A stretch of 64,000 bases of DNA from Desulfobulbaceae bacterium (GTDB lineage: Bacteria; Desulfobacterota; Desulfobulbia; Desulfobulbales; Desulfocapsaceae), in assembly GCA_003249645.1 (NCBI GenBank), contig QKIH01000004.1, positions 27,394-91,393 of the forward strand, in the 5' to 3' direction. Shown here piece after piece: positions 6,474 to 64,000 of this stretch (positions are counted from its first letter, which is position 1; each line of letters begins with the position of its first letter). Both the position numbers and the translations under genes were made by a program. The notes under the pieces were generated by a model that was not told the origin of the DNA, did not search any database, and saw only the letters and a program-made list of their open reading frames with translations.

Positions 6474-7949
6474 ATGCTGCGTAAACTCATCAGCCTGACC
6501 AGAAAAAAGTGGCTTGCTGTTGTCGGGCGCAGGCAATCTCCTGATAATTCTAAAAGTTTTCCCGATCAGCCGCAAGAGGCTGAATATACAAGTGCAGTGC
6601 CTGAGGGCGCGGACATAAAGCCTGCTCCGGATCGTCCTGCAGCGGTTGAGCCGGAGCGCAGGAAATGGTCCCTTGAGCAGTTTCAGGTGGTGCCTGAGCC
6701 TGGTAAAAGCAGGTTTCATGATTTCGATCTGCCTCTTGAATTGATGCACGGTATTTTCGATAAAGGATTCAAATACTGCACCCCTATTCAGGAAAAGGCG
6801 CTTCCAGAAGCGTTGAATCGGGTTGATCTGCTGGCCCAGGCCAATACCGGTACCGGGAAAAGTGCGGTCTTTCTCATTGCTCTGTTCAATAATATGCTGA
6901 AAGCCGGTCGCGTCGGCAAGACTGTCGGAAAACCGAAAGCCCTGGTTGTTGCTCCGACCAGGGAGTTGGTGACTCAGATAGCAAAAGAGGCAGAAGTCCT
7001 GGGCAGATACACCGGCCTCAAAACGATAGCTGTTTACGGAGGCGTAGATTACCAGAAACAGATGCAGACGTTGCAGCGGGAATGTTGTGATCTCATTGTT
7101 GCAACTCCGGGTCGATTGCTTGATTTTGCTTCAAAGCAGGTAGTTTCACTGAAAGAAGTGTCTTCTCTGGTCCTTGATGAAGCGGATCGTATGCTTGATA
7201 TGGGGTTTATTCCCGATGTAAGACGGATAATCAGCAAACTGCCTGATGAAAAATCCCGCCATACCATGCTGTTCAGTGCTACGCTTAGCGAAGAAGTCAG
7301 TAGAATGGCATACAGCTGGTGCAACAAACCGGTAAAGATTGAAATTGAGCCGGAGCAGGTTGCCGTTGATACTGTTGAACAGCTTGTTTATATGGTGAGC
7401 GGGGAAGAAAAATTTGCCGTACTCTATAATCTGCTGCAGCAGAATAAGGATCAGCGGGTAATCGTTTTTGCCAATGAAAAGCGGGAGACGAGGGAGCTTG
7501 TTGATCGGCTGATGCGGCATGGTGTCAGGTGCAGCCTGTTGACCGGTGATGTGGCACAGAATAAGCGCGAAAAAAGGCTTGAAGATTTTCGGTCCGGACA
7601 GATGAAGGTGCTGGTGGCCACAGATGTGGCCGGCAGAGGCTTGCATATAAACGGTATAGAATACGTGGTCAATTACACGCTGCCCTTTGAGCCTGAAGAC
7701 TATGTCCATCGAATAGGCAGAACAGGGCGGGCCGGCAGAAACGGGGTTGCGGTAAGTTTTGCATGCGAGACCGGTTCCTTTGCTATTCCGGAAATTGAAG
7801 AATATATTGGCACAAAAATGCAGTGTTCGGTGCCCGATGATTCTTTGCTTGAGCCTCCTCCTGAGCCCAAACCGAAACAGAAACGAAAAAAACGCTATCC
7901 CAGAAAGTCGCCTCAGAAAAAGCAACAGACTTCAGATAATGTCTCATAA
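6474..7949 (+). CDS. DEAD-box ATP-dependent RNA helicase (RhlB/RhlE-like)
   Basis: AQANTGTGKSAVF, PTRELVTQI, VLDEADRMLD, SATL, HRIGRTGRAGR; ATG at 6474 preferred over the TTG start at 6435. Confidence 0.92.
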   Translation: MLRKLISLTRKKWLAVVGRRQSPDNSKSFPDQPQEAEYTSAVPEGADIKPAPDRPAAVEPERRKWSLEQFQVVPEPGKSRFHDFDLPLELMHGIFDKGFKYCTPIQEKALPEALNRVDLLAQANTGTGKSAVFLIALFNNMLKAGRVGKTVGKPKALVVAPTRELVTQIAKEAEVLGRYTGLKTIAVYGGVDYQKQMQTLQRECCDLIVATPGRLLDFASKQVVSLKEVSSLVLDEADRMLDMGFIPDVRRIISKLPDEKSRHTMLFSATLSEEVSRMAYSWCNKPVKIEIEPEQVAVDTVEQLVYMVSGEEKFAVLYNLLQQNKDQRVIVFANEKRETRELVDRLMRHGVRCSLLTGDVAQNKREKRLEDFRSGQMKVLVATDVAGRGLHINGIEYVVNYTLPFEPEDYVHRIGRTGRAGRNGVAVSFACETGSFAIPEIEEYIGTKMQCSVPDDSLLEPPPEPKPKQKRKKRYPRKSPQKKQQTSDNVS

Positions 7950-8319: not shown

Positions 8320-10047
8320 ATGGCAGAACAACAATTAACCAAAACAGACAGCAGCGAAGAGTTAAGTTTTGCAGATCTCTTCGAAATGGAAGAAAACAGC
8401 AAGGTAGTAGCCGTTGGTGACGTCGCTATCGGAACCGTAATCGGTGAAGTGGATGATTATCTCCTTGTTGATGTAGGTGACAAAGCAGAAAGTTATATCG
8501 CTAAATCTGAATTCCGTCTTGAAGGCGACCAGAAAATTCAGGTTGGTGATACTTTTGAAGTCTTTGTTGAACGCCGCAAAGAAGAAGGCGGACTCCTGCT
8601 GTCCCGTGAAAAAGCGATAGCGATCAAAGTCTGGGAAGACATCGCAAAAATTCAGGACGACGATGGTACCATTGAAGGTAAAATTGAGAGCAGAGTTAAA
8701 GGCGGTATGTCCGTTGATATCGGCGTACCTGCATTCCTCCCATACTCTCAGATCGATCTTCGTCCGGTTAAAGATCTTGACGGCCTCATCGGTGAGAGCT
8801 TCGAGTTCAAGATTCTGAAGTTCAATAGAAAGCGTAACAACGTGGTCATCTCCCGACGTGCGATTCTTGAAGAGTCCAGAAATAAACTTCGTGAGAAAAT
8901 GCGTTCACAGCTCGAGGAAGGCCAGATCATCAAAGGTGCTATTACCAATATCACCGATTACGGTCTGTTCATCGATATGGGCGGTATGGACGGTCTTTGC
9001 CATATCACCGATCTGTCATGGGGTCGTGTTTCTCACCCTGCCAAACTGTACAAAGTTGGCCAGGAGCTTGAGGTTAAGGTTCTTAAATATGACAAAGATC
9101 ACGATCGTGTATCCCTGGGTGTTAAACAGCTTCGCGAAGATCCTTGGGAGACCGTTGTTGAAAGATATCCGGTTAACGAGAAAACCACCGGTAAAGTTGT
9201 TTCAATCACCGATTACGGTGTGTTCGTAGAGCTTGAGGAAGGTGTTGAAGGTCTGATCCACGTATCTGAGATGACCTGGTCCAAAAAACCGAGACATCCA
9301 TCCAAGATGGTTGCAGTCGGTGATGAGGTCGAGGTTGTTGTTCTTAACATCGAGCCTGAGACCAAGCGTATCTCTCTTGGTATGAAGCAGCTTCAGCAGA
9401 ATCCTTGGGATGTGGTTACCGAGACCTACCCGGTTGGCTCTGTTATCGAAGGAAAAATCAAGAACATCACCGACTTTGGTGTATTCATTGGTATTGAAGA
9501 CGGCATTGACGGCTTGATCCACGTATCTGACCTCAGCTGGACTGAGAGAATAAAGCATCCTTCTGAGAAATACACCAAAGGTGAGACCATTCAGGCCGTT
9601 GTTCTCAAGATCGATAAAGAGAACGAGAGATTCTCTCTTGGTATCAAGCAGCTTATTCCTGATCCATGGCAGGAAGCCTACAACAACTATCCTTCCGGAA
9701 CTGTTGTTGAAGGTGAGATTACCAACGTTACCGACTTCGGTGTGTTCGTAAAACTTGAAGAAGGTATCGAAGGTCTGGTTCACGTATCCGAGATCTCCAA
9801 GGATAAAGTGAAAACTCCGGTTGGAATGTATCAGGTTGGTGACATCCTTAAAGCTATCGTTATCAATGTGTCTGCAAAAGACAGAAAGATCGGTCTTTCT
9901 GTAAAGACCCTTGAAACCGACGGTGAAGAAGAGGCGGTTGAGAAGTTCAAGCGCGCTGAAGAAGAGGCTGCAGAGTCTGCGCCATCTACCTTCGGTGATC
10001 TTCTGAAGGCTGCGGCAAGCGGAGGTCAGTCAGAAGACAACGAGTAA
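8320..10047 (+). CDS. rpsA: 30S ribosomal protein S1
   Basis: Multiple S1 repeats (ITDYGVFVELEEGVEGLIHVSEMTW...); start placed at MAEQQLTKTDSSEELSFADLFE, not at the repeat-encoded TTG at 8188. Confidence 0.95.
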   Translation: MAEQQLTKTDSSEELSFADLFEMEENSKVVAVGDVAIGTVIGEVDDYLLVDVGDKAESYIAKSEFRLEGDQKIQVGDTFEVFVERRKEEGGLLLSREKAIAIKVWEDIAKIQDDDGTIEGKIESRVKGGMSVDIGVPAFLPYSQIDLRPVKDLDGLIGESFEFKILKFNRKRNNVVISRRAILEESRNKLREKMRSQLEEGQIIKGAITNITDYGLFIDMGGMDGLCHITDLSWGRVSHPAKLYKVGQELEVKVLKYDKDHDRVSLGVKQLREDPWETVVERYPVNEKTTGKVVSITDYGVFVELEEGVEGLIHVSEMTWSKKPRHPSKMVAVGDEVEVVVLNIEPETKRISLGMKQLQQNPWDVVTETYPVGSVIEGKIKNITDFGVFIGIEDGIDGLIHVSDLSWTERIKHPSEKYTKGETIQAVVLKIDKENERFSLGIKQLIPDPWQEAYNNYPSGTVVEGEITNVTDFGVFVKLEEGIEGLVHVSEISKDKVKTPVGMYQVGDILKAIVINVSAKDRKIGLSVKTLETDGEEEAVEKFKRAEEEAAESAPSTFGDLLKAAASGGQSEDNE

Positions 10048-56855: not shown

Positions 56856-57470
56856 GTTACCACCCCTTACACACTGGCGGCTAGCCGGTCGGCGCGAGCA
56901 TGCGCGTCTGAAAAGGCTTTACCCGTATTGTTTTAAACGAATTGTTGTCTTTAACATGTCTTTTGTTCTATTCTTGCGGTGAAAACACTTCTGTTTTAAG
57001 CGGCCGTTCAAACTATCCAATACATGTTGGATAAGATGTTACGTCCCAATTTTTGCTTTTCTTTTTTACAGAGTCAGAAAATTCTCCTTCTATTTCTGCA
57101 AACGCATCAACTATCCAGCTTCCTGTAATATTATATAACCACGATGCTGATTTTGGGAATACGCCGGTGCAAAGCTAGCAAGACACCAAAATAATAGACA
57201 ATAAATTATGAATAGAAGAACTTGTAAGTTTTTCTCGCCGCTTATTTTGTAACTTCTTAAATGACAACTATTCAAGTAAACGGGATGGGGCAAACTATTG
57301 AGTTGTTCAAAATGACGGGGCTTCTATGAGAGTTTGAAAGAGATTCTTACGGGTTAACTTTTTCTATCAACACGATTTGCTGTTTTGTAATACTTGATTA
57401 AACGGCCTGCGGTTACAGGAGCCCGAATAGAAAATCAAGCATCGGTATGAAATGCCAGTTATGCTAACGA

Positions 57471-57929
57471 TCAATTGATACCTAATGTCATGAATCTGCT
57501 GTTTGGATCAGGTTTATAGTCTGCAAATGGTTCACAATAGCTAAAACCAAATTTCTCGTAGAGATTGCGGGCAGCCTTAAAGTAATCATGAGCTCCTGTT
57601 TCAAGACTGACTTGTTTGTAACCCCGGGACTTAGCCACCTCAAGTGCATGAGTAAGAAGACGGCTGGCGACACCGGATTGACGGGCAAATGTTGAGGTGC
57701 GCATAGATTTGAGCTCAACATGGCTTGAATCCAATTCTTTGATCGCAAGACAGCCCATCAATCTGCCGTTTAGCCAGCCACTAAAGAAGGTTATTTCCGG
57801 TGCTTTAAGGCGATCAACGTCAAGTGCATGAACACTTTCAGGAGGTGTTGTTGCATGCATGTCAGCCAGGTGTTCTTCCAGTAATTTTATGACTTCTCCA
57901 TTAGACAAATCATCAATTTTAATTTCCAT
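57471..57929 (-). CDS. GNAT N-acetyltransferase
   Basis: LKSMRTSTFARQSGVASRLLTHALEVAKSRGYKQVSLETGAHDYFKAARNLYEKFGFSYCEPF. Confidence 0.9.
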   Translation of the reverse strand: MEIKIDDLSNGEVIKLLEEHLADMHATTPPESVHALDVDRLKAPEITFFSGWLNGRLMGCLAIKELDSSHVELKSMRTSTFARQSGVASRLLTHALEVAKSRGYKQVSLETGAHDYFKAARNLYEKFGFSYCEPFADYKPDPNSRFMTLGIN

Positions 57930-57966
57930 ATTTTGTTAGTGCTGAATAATCATTGTAGGTTAAGAG

Positions 57967-58026
57967 GCTTAATTACGAACGTTCGAGCGGTGGCATCTGC
58001 CGAGCGATTCAACGTCTTGTTATGAC
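57967..58026 (-). other. attC-like recombination site candidate (site B)
   Basis: Minus strand TCATAAC-AAGACGTTGAATCGCTCGG...CCGCTCGAACGTTCGTA-ATTAAGC; arms inversely complementary; next gene's stop TAA lies in TCATAAC. Confidence 0.6.
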
Positions 58027-58463
58027 TTTCTGGCTTCAATAATACTTATAGTCAATTCGGCAGAAATTCCGGTAAACTCTTTACACCGGCTGCCCAATTT
58101 CTTTTCACGAAAGTGATTTTGTCCTTTTTCTGTGCCAATATCACAGCCCAGCAAGTCAGCACAATTTATAGCACCATATTTTTCGTGAAACTGTTTCAGC
58201 AGTAATTGCACAGCAGCATAATTTTCTTCGACTGTTTCATTCGGATTGTTTCTGCCAAAGGCAATGTTTAGTCCCAAAATACCGCCGGTTAATGCGCCGC
58301 ACATACCACTTGTACGTGCCAAACCACTGCAGAAGCCAGTAGCAATCTTTGGAATTAATGGTGATTGTATATCGAGTTTCTCTGCAACAGCCTCAAGAAC
58401 GCTCTCAGCACAAAACAGGCCTTCTTCAAATTTTTGTTCAGCAGATTTTTTATAGTTATCCAT
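58020..58463 (-). CDS. C_GCAxxG_C_C family protein
   Basis: ATGFCSGLARTSGMCGALTGGILGLNIAFGR; start placed at MDNYKKSAEQKF. Confidence 0.88.
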   Translation of the reverse strand: MDNYKKSAEQKFEEGLFCAESVLEAVAEKLDIQSPLIPKIATGFCSGLARTSGMCGALTGGILGLNIAFGRNNPNETVEENYAAVQLLLKQFHEKYGAINCADLLGCDIGTEKGQNHFREKKLGSRCKEFTGISAELTISIIEARKS

Positions 58464-58508
58464 ATTGAGGTTCCTTTTGAGTCGAACAGTCTTCTTCATC
58501 TGCGAGTT

Positions 58509-59054
58509 TTAGCGCATCGGGGTGAAACGTTTTGTTAAGTCTTGTATTATTTCATCTGTTGATACAATACCTTCGTATCTAATAATTTCACATTCAATTT
58601 CTTTCAACCATGCATCATGCATTGCCTTGCTTATCATTTCACGACTACCTGTGTCATATTGCGAAGCCCAGTTAATAAATTCTTTATGGTTTTCATGCAT
58701 TTCTCCACCCGGGTTTAATGAGTGTTGGCCAAATCTCTCGATTTCCCTGATCTTTAATCTCTTTATCCGAACTTCGGTTGGAACCCAAAGAAAAATTACT
58801 AGATCAAATAGCGGTATTAAAAAATCTGCCCAACCGCATAATGATCCTGATATCACCCAGCTATCGTTATTGCTCAATGAATTTTTCAGCAGTTTTCTTC
58901 TTTCTTTTTTATCTCGAGAGAATTGATATGGAGGATTGCTCGGTGTCCAAAAGAAATCATCAGTATCAAAATGCTGGATCTTGAAGTCATCGGAAATTTT
59001 TTTCCCAAGAGTTGTTGTCCCTGATCCAGAAGCACCTGTAACATGAATTTTCAT
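58509..59054 (-). CDS. P-loop nucleoside/adenylate-kinase-like protein
   Basis: MKIHVTGASGSGTTTLGKKISDDFKIQHFDTDDFFW; start placed at the internal Met. Confidence 0.85.
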   Translation of the reverse strand: MKIHVTGASGSGTTTLGKKISDDFKIQHFDTDDFFWTPSNPPYQFSRDKKERRKLLKNSLSNNDSWVISGSLCGWADFLIPLFDLVIFLWVPTEVRIKRLKIREIERFGQHSLNPGGEMHENHKEFINWASQYDTGSREMISKAMHDAWLKEIECEIIRYEGIVSTDEIIQDLTKRFTPMR

Positions 59055-59139
59055 GAGATGTTTTGCTACCAATTTGGGTAAATCCGAGTTGTTTGTTTCT
59101 TTGTAGACTTCGACACCTTTGCAGGGATAGGCCGCAGAG

Positions 59140-59164
59140 TAAACTAGGTTTGCCAAACAGTTTA
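59140..59164. other. Palindrome, weak attC-like candidate
   Basis: TAAACT-AGGTTTGCCAAAC-AGTTTA with inner GTTTG/CAAAC pairing, between two minus-strand genes and next to a stop codon. Confidence 0.35.
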
Positions 59165-59176
59165 TAATAATTATGT

Positions 59177-59788
59177 TTAATTATAATTGCTTATTGAATA
59201 GAACAAGTATCCGACACCGAAAATTACTAATACCAAATATGATAATAAATTCGCTTTAAATATTGTTGCTCTGATGATTTTCTTTTCGATTGTCCTGAAA
59301 AATTTCTTAGTCACAAACAGCTCTAGTATTACTGAGATGAAGAAAGCGACTATTAAGCTATTTATGAAGGCAATAGGTATAAGCCAATAGAGATGATCTT
59401 CCCACGGGCATAACCAGGCTGATTCAAGAATTGCTGTTAGTATGGTGTTAGGGAGCGTATCGAAACCAGGGCCACAACTTCCTCCTGTTGTGAGAAATTC
59501 AAGGCCGAGCAGCAAGCCCCAGGATAATGGAAAACCAGCTATTGTGGAAAGCACATTAGCAGATGCGCTTGCTGCTAGAGATTTCTTAAATGGTGTTTTA
59601 AAATTTAAAGTGTATATGTAACCTTCTAAAAAAATTATAGGAATTAGTGCGATGAGCATTACAGGAAATGAAAGGAAGATCATTGGAACGCCTGCGTCTG
59701 CCATTGCTTGAGATGGCACTAAAAGGCAACTGACTAAAATAAAAACACAAAATCCCGCTTGTCTGATGTTCTTGGGTTGGATGCTCAT
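59177..59788 (-). CDS. Membrane protein, hypothetical
   Basis: Several hydrophobic segments; no family recognised. Confidence 0.65.
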   Translation of the reverse strand: MSIQPKNIRQAGFCVFILVSCLLVPSQAMADAGVPMIFLSFPVMLIALIPIIFLEGYIYTLNFKTPFKKSLAASASANVLSTIAGFPLSWGLLLGLEFLTTGGSCGPGFDTLPNTILTAILESAWLCPWEDHLYWLIPIAFINSLIVAFFISVILELFVTKKFFRTIEKKIIRATIFKANLLSYLVLVIFGVGYLFYSISNYN

Positions 59789-59832
59789 CAACGTATTGTT
59801 CTAAAGGTTGGTTCACCGGGGTGTTTCAGCGA

Positions 59833-59880
59833 GGCCAACGTAATGCGCTGGCGCGACGGAGAAGCAACCTGGTTAGCAGC
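59833..59880 (-). other. attC-like recombination site candidate (site D)
   Basis: Minus strand GCTAACC-AGGTTGCTTC...GCGCATTAC-GTTGGCC; stop TAA of the next gene (59873) is inside GCTAACC. Confidence 0.6.
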
Positions 59881-60403
59881 TTTTTTTGTTTAGTTTTTCG
59901 TTCAATAATGTCAAAGCCTTATGTCTCTCGGGGTGCTGATTGATTCTTTCTGCCAAATTTACAATGTCATTATACAATTCTGGACTAAGCTTTTCTTTAA
60001 GCAACTCTATCATTTCTGCCTGTTTCCTGTTTTTTCTTTGTTCCCTCTGCCAAGAAAGAGACCAGATCTGAAACAGATTCTCTTGAAAATGATTCTCTGC
60101 TACTTTCTGCCATTCACCTTTGTCAAACCAAATACCATAACATTTTGAACATCTTTCAAGATAAAATGGCTGATCATCATCATTGACTTTTGCTCTGGTT
60201 AAAATCCCATGTCCCTGAGGACATAAGCCAGTCTTAGAATCATGATCCGGGTATTCATTGCTTTTTAAAGTATGATCAGAAATTTCGGATAGTCGGTCTA
60301 TAAATTTGCTCTCTAACCACAGCCCGCCGCACTCGGGACAGAAATATGGTGAACTAAATTCTTTTTTCTTTAAGGCTGCATTTTTACATTTTGGGCAATT
60401 CAT
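59873..60403 (-). CDS. TFIIB-type zinc-ribbon protein
   Basis: MNCPKCKNAALKKKEFSSPYFCPECGGLWLESKFIDRL; LERCSKCYGIWFDKGEWQ. Confidence 0.82.
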   Translation of the reverse strand: MNCPKCKNAALKKKEFSSPYFCPECGGLWLESKFIDRLSEISDHTLKSNEYPDHDSKTGLCPQGHGILTRAKVNDDDQPFYLERCSKCYGIWFDKGEWQKVAENHFQENLFQIWSLSWQREQRKNRKQAEMIELLKEKLSPELYNDIVNLAERINQHPERHKALTLLNEKLNKKSC

Positions 60404-60423
60404 GGAATGTATTTCCTGTTTCA

Positions 60424-60503
60424 AGATAACATTAAGTAAAAAAGCGGCGGTCACACCAGCCAAGTAAGGCATCAAGCGAACGCTTTAAACGCTTTATTAT
60501 AAC
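60424..60503 (-). other. attC-like recombination site candidate (site C)
   Basis: Minus strand TTATAATAAAGCGTTTAAAGCGTTCG...CCGCCGCTTTTTTACTTAATGTTATC; imperfectly complementary arms. Confidence 0.5.
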
Positions 60504-60609
60504 TTTTATTTATTTGTTTTTGTTGTTTTTTTATGCTTCTATCTTGTTTCGTTATCCAGTTGAATAAAGTTGACACCGTAAATTCAAAACGGCCATTTGG
60601 AAATTAATT

Positions 60610-60978
60610 ATGTACAAGAATTTATTTAAATTTGCAGTTTTAAGCATAACGATTTTAACAGCAGAATTAGTGGCAAACTCAATAACAGATTACCTTGTTT
60701 CCTACAAATGGCAGCTTAAACCGCTTCGCTTTACTCTGGTATCAATGGCTATCATCTTGATAGTCTTTTATCCTCTTATGACACAGTTTGAAAAATGGTT
60801 TAACAAGTTTACAAAGCGCTTTGTTAAAGCGGGTAACTTTTATTTTGGTAAGTATTTGGGATTGTTGTTTATGTATTTTGTTGCGGTGATAATATTAACC
60901 TATTTTTATGCCCGGATGTTGTATGATATCGATCTTGTCAATTATGTTTTAGACGGGAAAATAGTCACTTTATTTTAG
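60610..60978 (+). CDS. Small membrane protein, hypothetical, opposite orientation to neighbours
   Basis: Three hydrophobic segments; no family recognised. Confidence 0.6.
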   Translation: MYKNLFKFAVLSITILTAELVANSITDYLVSYKWQLKPLRFTLVSMAIILIVFYPLMTQFEKWFNKFTKRFVKAGNFYFGKYLGLLFMYFVAVIILTYFYARMLYDIDLVNYVLDGKIVTLF

Positions 60979-61054
60979 TTGCTTAGGCCTTGAGTCCCTC
61001 CTCCTCCCTCATCATTTTCTATTTTATTCAAAATTGGAGTTAAGAAATCTTGTG

Positions 61055-61085
61055 TAACGAGGTCTCCTTTGAAGACCTGTTAGGC
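61055..61085 (-). other. Short attC-like site candidate (site J)
   Basis: Minus strand GCCTAAC-AGGTCT-tcaaagg-AGACCT-CGTTA; GCCTAAC matches RYYYAAC and directly follows a TAG stop codon. Confidence 0.6.
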
Positions 61086-61495
61086 CTACGTATTTAGCGG
61101 TATCCCGAGCTGCCTGTTTTGTGACGCTGAATCTCTTGCGCCCCAACGCTTTTTGATTTTTCCATTCTCAATTTCAAACCATTCCATTGCAACTAACTCA
61201 TATGATTTTCCGGTTGGTTCGTGGCCAAATGCTGGGCTTTAAAGAGACCTCTTTCGATATAGCGTACTGCAACAATATTACCCTCAGCAATCATACTCTG
61301 AATTTCCAACTGCATGCCGAACCCTTCAATCAGTTGCTGCCAGATTGGGGGTATTTTCTCGAATAATCCTTTCCCAAACACGCCTTGAACTTCAGCATCA
61401 ACTGAAAGCAGGGACTCTAATAATTTCAGATCGCCATCATTAAATGCATTTACATATTTCAGGACAACGTCTTTTGATTCAGACTCTTGCGACAT
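61086..61495 (-). pseudogene. SnoaL-like protein, single-base frameshift
   Basis: Frame 1 MSQESESKDVVLKYVNAFNDGD...RYIERGLFKA; frame 2 continues AFGHEPTGKSYELVAMEWFEIENGKIKKRWGARDSASQNRQLGIPLNT*; break at GGG 61234-61236. Confidence 0.85.
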
Positions 61496-61559
61496 ATACC
61501 CTCCTAAACTATATCTGTTTTGTTTCTGTTTTGTTCACATCATCCTTTTTACTCCCAAC

Positions 61560-61633
61560 AGCATGTGTAAACAGTGCGCGATCACATGTGTCCCGGCGAA
61601 GCATCAGCTAAGCGGCTTAAACGCTTTTAGCAT
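61560..61633 (-). other. attC-like recombination site candidate (site K)
   Basis: Minus strand ATGCTAAAAGCGTTTAAGCCGCTTAGCTGATGC...GCGCACTGTTTACACATGC; shares a block with site C. Confidence 0.45.
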
Positions 61634-61636
61634 TTT

Positions 61637-61837
61637 TTAATTTGAAAACATTTCTTGAAAGACTTGAAGGGTCTTTTCTTGTGCGCTTTTGCTTAAAGAT
61701 CCAAGTTTTTTTACAAGTCGTTTTTTATCAACCGTTCGTATTTGTTCTAAGATTATTTGGCCTTTTTTACTTTGGAATGAACACGTTATTCTACTTGGAT
61801 ACTCTTTACCTTTTGTAGTCATCGGAGCTACAATTAC
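61637..61837 (-). pseudogene. MazF/PemK-family toxin, N-terminally truncated
   Basis: VIVAPMTTKGKEYPSRITCSFQSKKGQIILEQIRTVDKKRLVKKLGSLSKSAQEKTLQVFQEMFSN is a MazF C-terminal half; homology stops at VIV, then in-frame stop. Confidence 0.85.
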
Positions 61838-61838
61838 A

Positions 61839-62075
61839 GAAGGTTGGCCTCAGGTGAGAACTGTTTTATATATGGAAATAATGTCCGCTATGCAGTTCAA
61901 CCCTGTATTTAAAGAGACATATCAGCGTTTGGTAGCTGCAGGTAAAACCAAAAAAGTAACTCTTGTTGCCAGTGTTAGAAAGATGAGTGTTATCTTAAAG
62001 TCAATGTTAAGAGACGGGGTTATGTGGGAAGATCAAAAGTATGAAAATCACTGTTGACACCATAGTCTCTGGTTA
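61839..62075 (+). mobile_element. IS110-family (IS1111-like) transposase C-terminal remnant and probable right end
   Basis: EGWPQVRTVLYMEIMSAMQFNPVFKETYQRLVAAGKTKKVTLVASVRKMSVILKSMLRDG; TTGACACCATAGTCTCTGG-type end after the stop codon. Confidence 0.82.
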
Positions 62076-62124
62076 TGACTTTTGTAAATTTTCCTCTATT
62101 CATTTTAAACAGTTTACATTCGAG

Positions 62125-62958
62125 TTATAGAGACCTTCTCCAAATACTTCTGGTAGAGTTTTGATATACTACAAGTGTATTTCTATCCTCTGACAAAAAT
62201 ATTCTTTCTTCATATTCAATGTCATCTTTATCTACGACTCTCATTGATATCATCTGACTGGAAATTTTGGAAAAACTACTAATATTTGTCTTCTTAGAGC
62301 CATTACTTAGGGCGTAGGTAATTGTTTGTTCATCATGGTTATATTTTCTGACATCTTTTCCTTTTTTCCAGATTCCAAATATGTCTTCTTTTTTAATCGA
62401 ATTGTTTGAAAATATATAATTATTCATTATTTCGACTAGTCTATTTTTTATATATTTATCTAACATCAAATACAGATTGTTGTGAAAATATATGGATATC
62501 TTTGTTGCCAAGAATGATTTTATAGCTGTTTCGGAGTTATCAATGTTACATTTATCAAGATGTTTCCTAAGATTACTATTAGTTGCAATGTGTGGATGAT
62601 AGGCTATCTGTAAACTTCTTAGACTAATTTCTTTGAAAAAACGTGATTCTAAAATATACAGAAGAAAATCTTGTAAACTGAAGAATTCATCACAAACAAG
62701 AGGCCTTCCAGGTTCGACGTATATATAATGTTTAGATATGCTATTTGTATTTATTACATAGAGGTCTTGTTGTTCGGCCAGAGCCCTTGAAATTTGACTT
62801 TTGTCATGCAAGAACTTGAGATGAGTATGTTTTTTCTTTAATAATAAAAGAGAAACATTTACCGTGATTTTAATTAAAAGAGCTTGAAAAATGAGTTTCG
62901 TCGCTCTCCTCTTCATCGACATTTCGGTTCGTGAAAATGATTTTTTAATTTGGATCAA
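62125..62958 (-). CDS. Hypothetical protein, 277 aa
   Basis: ORF; stop TAA inside an attC-like CTATAAC; no family recognised. Confidence 0.6.
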   Translation of the reverse strand: MIQIKKSFSRTEMSMKRRATKLIFQALLIKITVNVSLLLLKKKHTHLKFLHDKSQISRALAEQQDLYVINTNSISKHYIYVEPGRPLVCDEFFSLQDFLLYILESRFFKEISLRSLQIAYHPHIATNSNLRKHLDKCNIDNSETAIKSFLATKISIYFHNNLYLMLDKYIKNRLVEIMNNYIFSNNSIKKEDIFGIWKKGKDVRKYNHDEQTITYALSNGSKKTNISSFSKISSQMISMRVVDKDDIEYEERIFLSEDRNTLVVYQNSTRSIWRRSL

Positions 62959-63343
62959 TTTTGCTATTAATTGAGGAACACTTTGCCCAAAATGAATTGT
63001 CTTTTGTTTTTGTTAAAAGAGAATCAGCCATTATTAATAAAAAAATTGAGGGTATTATAATTATCTTATTGCTCTCTATGAAGCCATAGCCAATGCCTAA
63101 TGAGCCGACAACATTTACTACATGACCAAAGATTGAAGGGGCAAGGATTTTTTTGCCTGACAATTCTCCAGATTTTTTCATTGTCCAAATGTTATACCAA
63201 ATGAGAAAATAACTCATTAGAAGCGAAAATGTTGAAGAAATGAAGAATTTAATGGGTTTGGTAAAATCTATGATATTTATTCCAATTAAGTAAGCTAGTC
63301 CTGCAATTATTGATAAAAGTATAAAACTCGATAGGAATTTCAA
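62945..63343 (-). CDS. Membrane protein, hypothetical
   Basis: Four hydrophobic segments; overlaps the downstream gene start by 14 bp. Confidence 0.6.
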   Translation of the reverse strand: MKFLSSFILLSIIAGLAYLIGINIIDFTKPIKFFISSTFSLLMSYFLIWYNIWTMKKSGELSGKKILAPSIFGHVVNVVGSLGIGYGFIESNKIIIIPSIFLLIMADSLLTKTKDNSFWAKCSSINSKIDPN

Positions 63344-63361
63344 GCTTAAGTCTCCTTTGTT

Positions 63362-63439
63362 GTCATAACGTTAAGCTAAACGGCCGCGATCACGCGGTCC
63401 GAGTGGGCTTCTGCCCACGGTTTAAGCGATTGGTTATAT
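63362..63439 (-). other. attC-like recombination site candidate (site A)
   Basis: Minus strand ATATAACCAATCGCTTAAACCG...CCGTTTAGCTTAACGTTATGAC; inner hairpins GTGGGC-ttct-GCCCAC and CCGCG-atca-CGCGG. Confidence 0.65.
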
Positions 63440-63576
63440 TAGTTTTTTTATTTGTTTTAGTCTTTTATTGCAATTGCTTTTAATGCCTTTATTTCTTGCC
63501 AGAACTTTCAAGTAGATTGTACTTTTGGTGCTTCCGTTTCTCAGGCAGAGTTCCAGGAAAACCAATTTCGTTTTTT

Positions 63577-63837
63577 TCAATAATTGTTGAACAACACTGC
63601 ACCAACTAAGAATATGAAAATGATTATGAAACCAAATATTTCTGTCTTGGTTAAATCTCTATTAGCATCTTTATTTAGCAGAAGCCATAAACCACCAAAA
63701 AGCAACGTACCTGCAATTGTTCGTCTTTTTTTATTTTCTTTACTGGTGCTGAATAGAAATAAACCAAATCCAATATAACCAAACATGAAAATAGCAATCA
63801 AAAGATAGATGAAATTTTCTTTGATAAAACTTGGCAT
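63577..63837 (-). CDS. Small membrane protein, hypothetical
   Basis: Three hydrophobic segments; no family recognised. Confidence 0.55.
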   Translation of the reverse strand: MPSFIKENFIYLLIAIFMFGYIGFGLFLFSTSKENKKRRTIAGTLLFGGLWLLLNKDANRDLTKTEIFGFIIIFIFLVGAVLFNNY

Positions 63838-64000
63838 TAGTTAATTTTCTTTACATATAACGAGTCTGTAGAAAAAGCCATATTTGAGAAGAAGGTGTCA
63901 ATTTAATCAGGCTCTTTCAAAATTTGTTAAATATTCATATTTCTCTATAGTTACATAACACTACTCCTAATCGCTACAAAAAGATAACAATTTGATATAG

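Follow-up and report, generated by a model that had tools for sequence, protein, structure and literature searches.

A chromosomal integron cassette array in a Desulfobulbaceae draft genome, probably part of a system of several Pc-attI platforms with one integrase gene

The right end of the stretch of Desulfobulbaceae DNA analysed here (64,000 nucleotides, hereafter the window; genome G000, contig C74, positions 27394-91393) is a chromosomal integron cassette array. In the usual description, an integron has a single integrase, a single attI site and a single promoter, and only its first few cassettes are expressed, the others forming a reserve. The integrase IntI recombines folded single-stranded attC sites with the double-stranded attI site, and the promoter Pc transcribes the first cassettes (PMC11023631). 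For the window we favour, with a probability of roughly 0.75, a reading in which the array is the platform-distant part of a chromosomal integron array within a multi-platform system, where one integrase gene (intI) is accompanied by at least four Pc-attI platforms and IntI serves all of them in trans. The genome is a 3.7-Mb draft in 182 contigs, 87% complete, and C74 terminates precisely at window base 64000, with the array continuing to the contig edge.

A covariance model, R1, was built from six attC sites of this genome, and the scores of the three supported sites in the window (Table 1) are partly circular, as these sites belong to the training set. Model-supported sites number three in the window, two on contig C105 and one on C126, in one orientation and with a conserved core and hairpin architecture; their alignment runs from a TAAC end through CAAKCGYTTAA, two hairpins, the second of which is centred on CGCG-TGAT-CGCG, and TTTARCTTAMC to a GTTAT end. 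BLAST with a single C105 attC as query matches the window at 63365-63437 (E 3.0e-16) and 60426-60500 (E 1.4e-7) as well as the C126 site (E 1.3e-17). Outside the window, model matches lie on C105, C126, C67 and C10, and among them R1 recovered sites on which it had not been trained, namely C67:9033-9112 (E 4.7e-8) and, more weakly, a site on C10 (E 5.4e-4). The original prediction had taken six palindromes for attC sites. Those at 63362-63439, 61560-61633 and 60424-60503 are supported by R1, the first and the last also by BLAST, but those at 59833-59880 and 61055-61085 gave no R1 match even with filters off, and the one at 57967-58026 reached just 12 bits (E 0.23). The last of these is plausibly a weak attC relic, and the stop codon of the C_GCAxxG gene falls within the R''-like box TCATAAC of the candidate at 57946-58027. 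An Rfam search of the window at the gathering threshold returned no match, and a generic attC scanner based on R box pairing and duplex energy found as many matches in control stretches as in the array and thus had no power.

The failure of R1 on three of the six palindromes is what could be said for there being no integron array at all, with palindromes lying between small genes by chance. This reading was rejected, and we give it next to no credence: the BLAST and covariance-model matches refute it, as attC similarity is significant among the window, C105, C126 and C67, including the untrained site and plain BLAST, and the assembly contains an apparently intact IntI. The predicted array itself therefore stands, with attC model matches obtained here and one intI found in the same assembly, on C105.

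This intI lies on a 7.5-kb contig (C105:965-2365, plus strand) and encodes 466 amino acids matching TIGR02249 with 449 bits (cut-off 265), the sole match above the cut-off in the assembly. Judged by its sequence the gene is intact-looking, with the motifs GLRLMECVR, HCLRHSF, LLGHADV and IYTH and patch III, a GH box and tyrosine that align with those of relatives, and Vibrio IntI (2A3V, E 2.9e-87) as the closest solved structure. In addition, the protein is extended at its N-terminus by about 150 residues, which contain a second SAM-like core-binding domain (PF13495, 31.7 bits, cut-off 27); an N-terminal extension of 110-190 amino acids is found in many, not all, IntI proteins of relatives in the order, and a literature search on this extension found no paper. 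Two attC cassettes are located at the left end of C105, divergent from intI. C74, with its three attC sites, has no TIGR02249 match and stops inside the array, which runs leftwards from a platform at its right, beyond the contig end. The expectation that an intI/attI platform would follow to the right of 64000 was accurate in that an intI with divergent cassettes exists in the assembly, but it is placed on a separate contig, C74 having ended at that base.

When the block preceding the C126 cassette was used as a query, copies were found on C126, C4, C105 and C43, and a sequence profile of this platform block recovers exactly those four. Only the C105 platform has intI beside it; tblastn for IntI remnants beside the C126, C4 and C43 platforms found none, and only the first nucleotides, which overlap the putative Pc box, align. 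Two islands are conserved in the alignment of the platforms, and all four copies have both. One is a TTGCRC-N17-TATA box, whose C105 copy overlaps the opening codons of intI; the other is an attI block that contains as many as three TACGGATTCCGTA-type palindromes and terminates in AATCCACTGTTA. Identity among the platforms is 0.72-0.83 in the box, 0.65-0.88 in the attI block and 0.25-0.57 in the spacer between them, against a shuffled expectation of 0.54; the spacer, about 60 bp long, gives 0.48-0.57 among C105, C126 and C4 and is shorter on C43. A 263-kb background, of which the C43 contig is itself a part, has one occurrence of the box. At the attI core GTT, identity steps from 0.88 over the preceding 30 nt to 0.40 over the following 30 nt, with different sequence beyond it in all four copies, and on C126 attI is followed by a cassette with a 94-bit attC and then by an inverted cytosine methyltransferase gene.

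An ordinary single chromosomal integron with the C105 platform, in which the repeat block elsewhere is an unrelated dispersed element that came to lie beside intI by chance, would agree with the match between the attC sites of C105 and the window and with an orientation that suits the C74 right end followed by C105. However, this is very improbable given that every copy of the repeat stops at the GTT, that an attC cassette sits directly behind the C126 copy, and that the last attC of the window is nearer to that of C126 (90.6% identity over 96 bp) than to one on C105 (83.5% over 109 bp). The latter proximity might point to C126 as the platform of the window array, but it is a hint only; open array ends are present on C105, C126 and C4. 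With four Pc-attI platforms and one intI, the window array therefore need not sit on the platform that bears intI.

Relatives carry such copies too. Six intI-upstream regions from the relatives served as queries against eight genomes. G023, a near-complete genome in two contigs, has five extra copies of the intI-upstream region (79-95% identical); a single strong extra copy (91-94%) occurs in each of G005, G018 and G016, and G005 and G016 have weaker ones too; G011 has five matches beyond its intI copy, G021 short matches, and G027 and G028, which belong to other families, one extra copy each. Extra copies without intI in the same genome are clear in G000, G005, G011, G016, G018, G023 and, in shorter form, G021. 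Most extra copies in the relatives either lack intI or retain 28-79 of its N-terminal residues at 58-91% identity, and two retain decayed C-terminal pieces. The identity step at GTT is similar to that of G000 in G023, G016, G011 and G005, and the core YACTGTT is found upstream of the relatives' intI as well. As a control, 18 other intI-upstream regions in 16 genomes were searched, most of which returned the query alone, with extra copies away from intI in G015 (88% over 163 bp), G013 (two, 83%), G029 (80%) and G020 (short); the multi-copy trait is therefore frequent in the family, not universal, and no artefact of the method.

At two loci of G023 (C1:2500953 and C1:556937), a platform without intI stands at the head of an array whose attC sites share 86-94% identity with one of those in the intI array. 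G023 has eight attC sites of one type on its 4-Mb chromosome, none of them more than about 5 kb from a platform; three are at platforms without intI and four beside the second intI of this genome. In four of the G023 platform copies, similarity breaks off sharply on the left at the same point, some 167 bp beyond the intI stop codon, and the DNA outside is unrelated; the copied unit was therefore intI-Pc-attI with a defined end, and intI was later lost within it. In G016, the first cassettes behind the satellite (a platform without intI) and behind the intI platform are different genes with nearly the same attC. An attC model from G023 did not recognise the sites of G000, and the G000 model found few, weak sites in the relatives; attC types therefore differ between genomes. 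As a separate observation, two attI copies in G023 lie in the same orientation 7.4 kb apart (L115, C1:3027000-3046500), and one platform therefore lies inside or behind the array of another. G005 has dispersed copies of two attI types, one intI above the cut-off and a decayed C-terminal intI piece on C87 (L121), a picture that would fit the loss of a second integrase.

Mechanistically, the C105 IntI would act in trans on all platforms and insert cassettes at each GTT core, and the Pc of each platform would transcribe the first cassettes of that platform, which would create several first positions per cell. The satellites probably arose when the whole platform was copied and intI was then truncated or lost, while their Pc and attI may have been retained by selection. 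In its full form, this amounts to a distributed integron in which platforms without intI are kept by selection, loaded in trans by a single IntI and used as parallel first-cassette positions, and in which the platform spreads around the chromosome as one unit, bounded on the left at a fixed point and on the right by attI. We regard this fuller proposal as evenly poised.

The satellites might instead be fossils, namely once-complete ordinary integrons that lost intI, whose attI and Pc survive unused and whose arrays are ordinary clusters of attC sites lacking integrases (CALINs). The truncated intI pieces that persist beside many satellites fit this idea, and CALINs are known to arise through loss of intI (PMC8618304). 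On the other hand, in G000 the Pc box and the attI block have stayed conserved on either side of a spacer whose similarity is now no better than chance, and the attC sites of G023 satellites without any intI are almost the same as one of those in the intI array. We consider fossils unlikely. Several observations nevertheless weigh against platforms that are maintained and used in a multi-platform system. In G016 the intI remnant (91%) is about as well preserved as attI (92%), as fossils would have it, and a recent truncation of intI without later use of the platform is possible there. Two G023 satellites (L116, L117) lack the upstream box seen beside intI, and L118 and L125, both satellites from near-complete genomes, are short, degenerate copies. 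In G000, the Pc motif is a putative promoter by sequence and was derived from the same four sites in which it is found, no attC was recognised beyond attI on C43, and C4 stops within the first open reading frame (ORF) after attI. Finally, in this draft assembly the ends of contigs show no overlap, and the window array is not joined to a platform by any contig.

Among known systems, the arrangement resembles sedentary chromosomal integrons such as the Vibrio superintegron in that intI is divergent from the attC array, with attI between them and a Pc-like box facing the cassettes, but differs in having several Pc-attI platforms at separate loci per intI, short arrays and heterogeneous attC sites. 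Insertion of cassettes at genomic sites termed attG, which reportedly diverge from both attI and attC (Loot et al. 2024), is similar in placing cassettes outside the main array through an IntI located elsewhere; here, however, the sites on C126, C4 and C43 are homologous to the C105 attI and thus copies of the resident attI, whereas an attG-type site is unrelated to attI. Like CALINs, the satellite loci and the visible part of the window array are attC arrays without a neighbouring intI, although for the window array an intI may follow beyond the end of C74. The satellites, however, are headed by a homologous attI and a promoter-like box and hence are platforms, a feature that the CALIN definition ignores; two studies propose that CALINs are mobilised in trans (PMC12444791, PMC9668308). 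The delta-attI cassettes of mobile integrons likewise place an extra attI-type sequence away from the platform, but in them the cassette has a truncated attI as its recombination site, whereas here Pc and attI form the head of an array at chromosomal loci (PMC12901181). Xanthomonas integrons with decayed intI have also lost the integrase and kept their arrays, with CALINs at further loci, but they are described as having one ancestral platform at ilvD, and the accessible part of that report does not describe dispersed Pc-attI copies (PMC12444791). CALINs, mobilisation in trans and attG insertion are already known (PMC8618304, PMC12444791, PMC9668308). A search of the open-access literature for multiple, orphan, second or duplicated attI, which left subscription papers outside its range, returned no report of dispersed Pc-attI platforms without intI. 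To our knowledge, standard annotation does not search for chromosomal attI copies by means of the sequence upstream of intI; such copies come to light when the stretch immediately preceding a genome's intI is used as a query against that genome. If one IntI does serve several attI-Pc platforms, several first cassettes could be expressed at once, the cost of long arrays would change, and part of the integrase-less arrays now classed as CALINs may be active platforms.

The array genes are listed in Table 1. As predicted, they are small, functionally unrelated and mostly on the minus strand, with Pfam and NCBIfam assignments that agree with the families claimed, and the region is AT-rich, its GC content falling from about 0.46 to 0.30-0.39. 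The MazF claim was right as to family, but just a C-terminal piece is left, the gene being broken by the adjoining IS110 transposase 3' fragment with its N-terminal half gone. The SnoaL-like frame has an apparent frameshift at its C-terminus.

Table 1. Cassette genes and attC sites at the right end of the window (window coordinates; R1 scores marked "training set" come from sites used to build the model).
Feature	Position	Strand	Evidence
Possible degenerate attC at GNAT 3' end, distal array end	57384-57466	-	R1 9.7 bits, E 1.2, not significant
GNAT acetyltransferase, left end of array	57471-57929	-	PF00583, E 2.9e-15
Possible degenerate attC, match in outer arms only	57946-58027	-	R1 12.1 bits, E 0.23 in 9 kb, filters off
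C_GCAxxG_C_C protein	58020-58499	-	PF09719, E 6.1e-26
P-loop kinase-like (AAA_18)	58509-59054	-	PRK06217, 227.9 bits
Orphan, membrane-like	59177-59791	-	ORF; no Pfam match
Zn-ribbon protein	59873-60403	-	PF13453, E 1.4e-11
attC	60423-60504	-	R1 77.8 bits, E 8.2e-20 (training set)
ORF in reverse orientation, 122 aa, membrane-like	60610-60978	+	ORF; no Pfam match
SnoaL-like cassette ORF	61193-61495	-	PF12680, E 6.2e-6
attC, diverged	61555-61635	-	R1 54.8 bits, E 6.1e-13 (training set)
MazF/PemK C-terminal remnant, 61 aa	61637-61822	-	PF02452, E 6.3e-9, model positions 43-109
IS110-family transposase 3' fragment	61833-62057	+	NF033542, E 5.3e-8, model positions 275-342/343
Cassette ORF, orphan, 277 aa	62125-62958	-	ORF; no Pfam or NCBIfam match
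Cassette ORF, orphan, 132 aa	62945-63343	-	ORF; no Pfam match
attC, branched hairpin	63362-63441	-	R1 94.1 bits, E 1.1e-24 (training set)
Cassette ORF, 86 aa, membrane-like	63577-63837	-	ORF; no Pfam match

Elsewhere in G000, a similar A-rich terminator-type hairpin (AAGAAAAACGGCC...CATTTTTCTT) opens three cassettes just past the recombination core (L012 on C105, at 290-340 and 740-790, and L051:8575-8625). Contigs C3 (L084:1-421) and C67 (L081:7770-8133) have 364 bp in common at 95% identity and diverge inside a DUF2939 gene, after which C3 continues with an attC-like site and a DoxX-like gene; either strain mixture or cassette insertion could explain this. The right end of C178 (L083:5600-8628) contains, by eye, methyltransferase-, GNAT-, VF530- and AhpD-like genes with weak attC matches on the minus strand at 7838-7935 and 8418-8499, and it looks like another, more diverged cassette array. 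Lastly, C10 (L082:5972-6810) carries a lone cassette in which an attC (29.7 bits) follows an orphan ORF of 253 amino acids; no attI was recognised ahead of the cassette, which may be an attG-like insertion at a genomic site.

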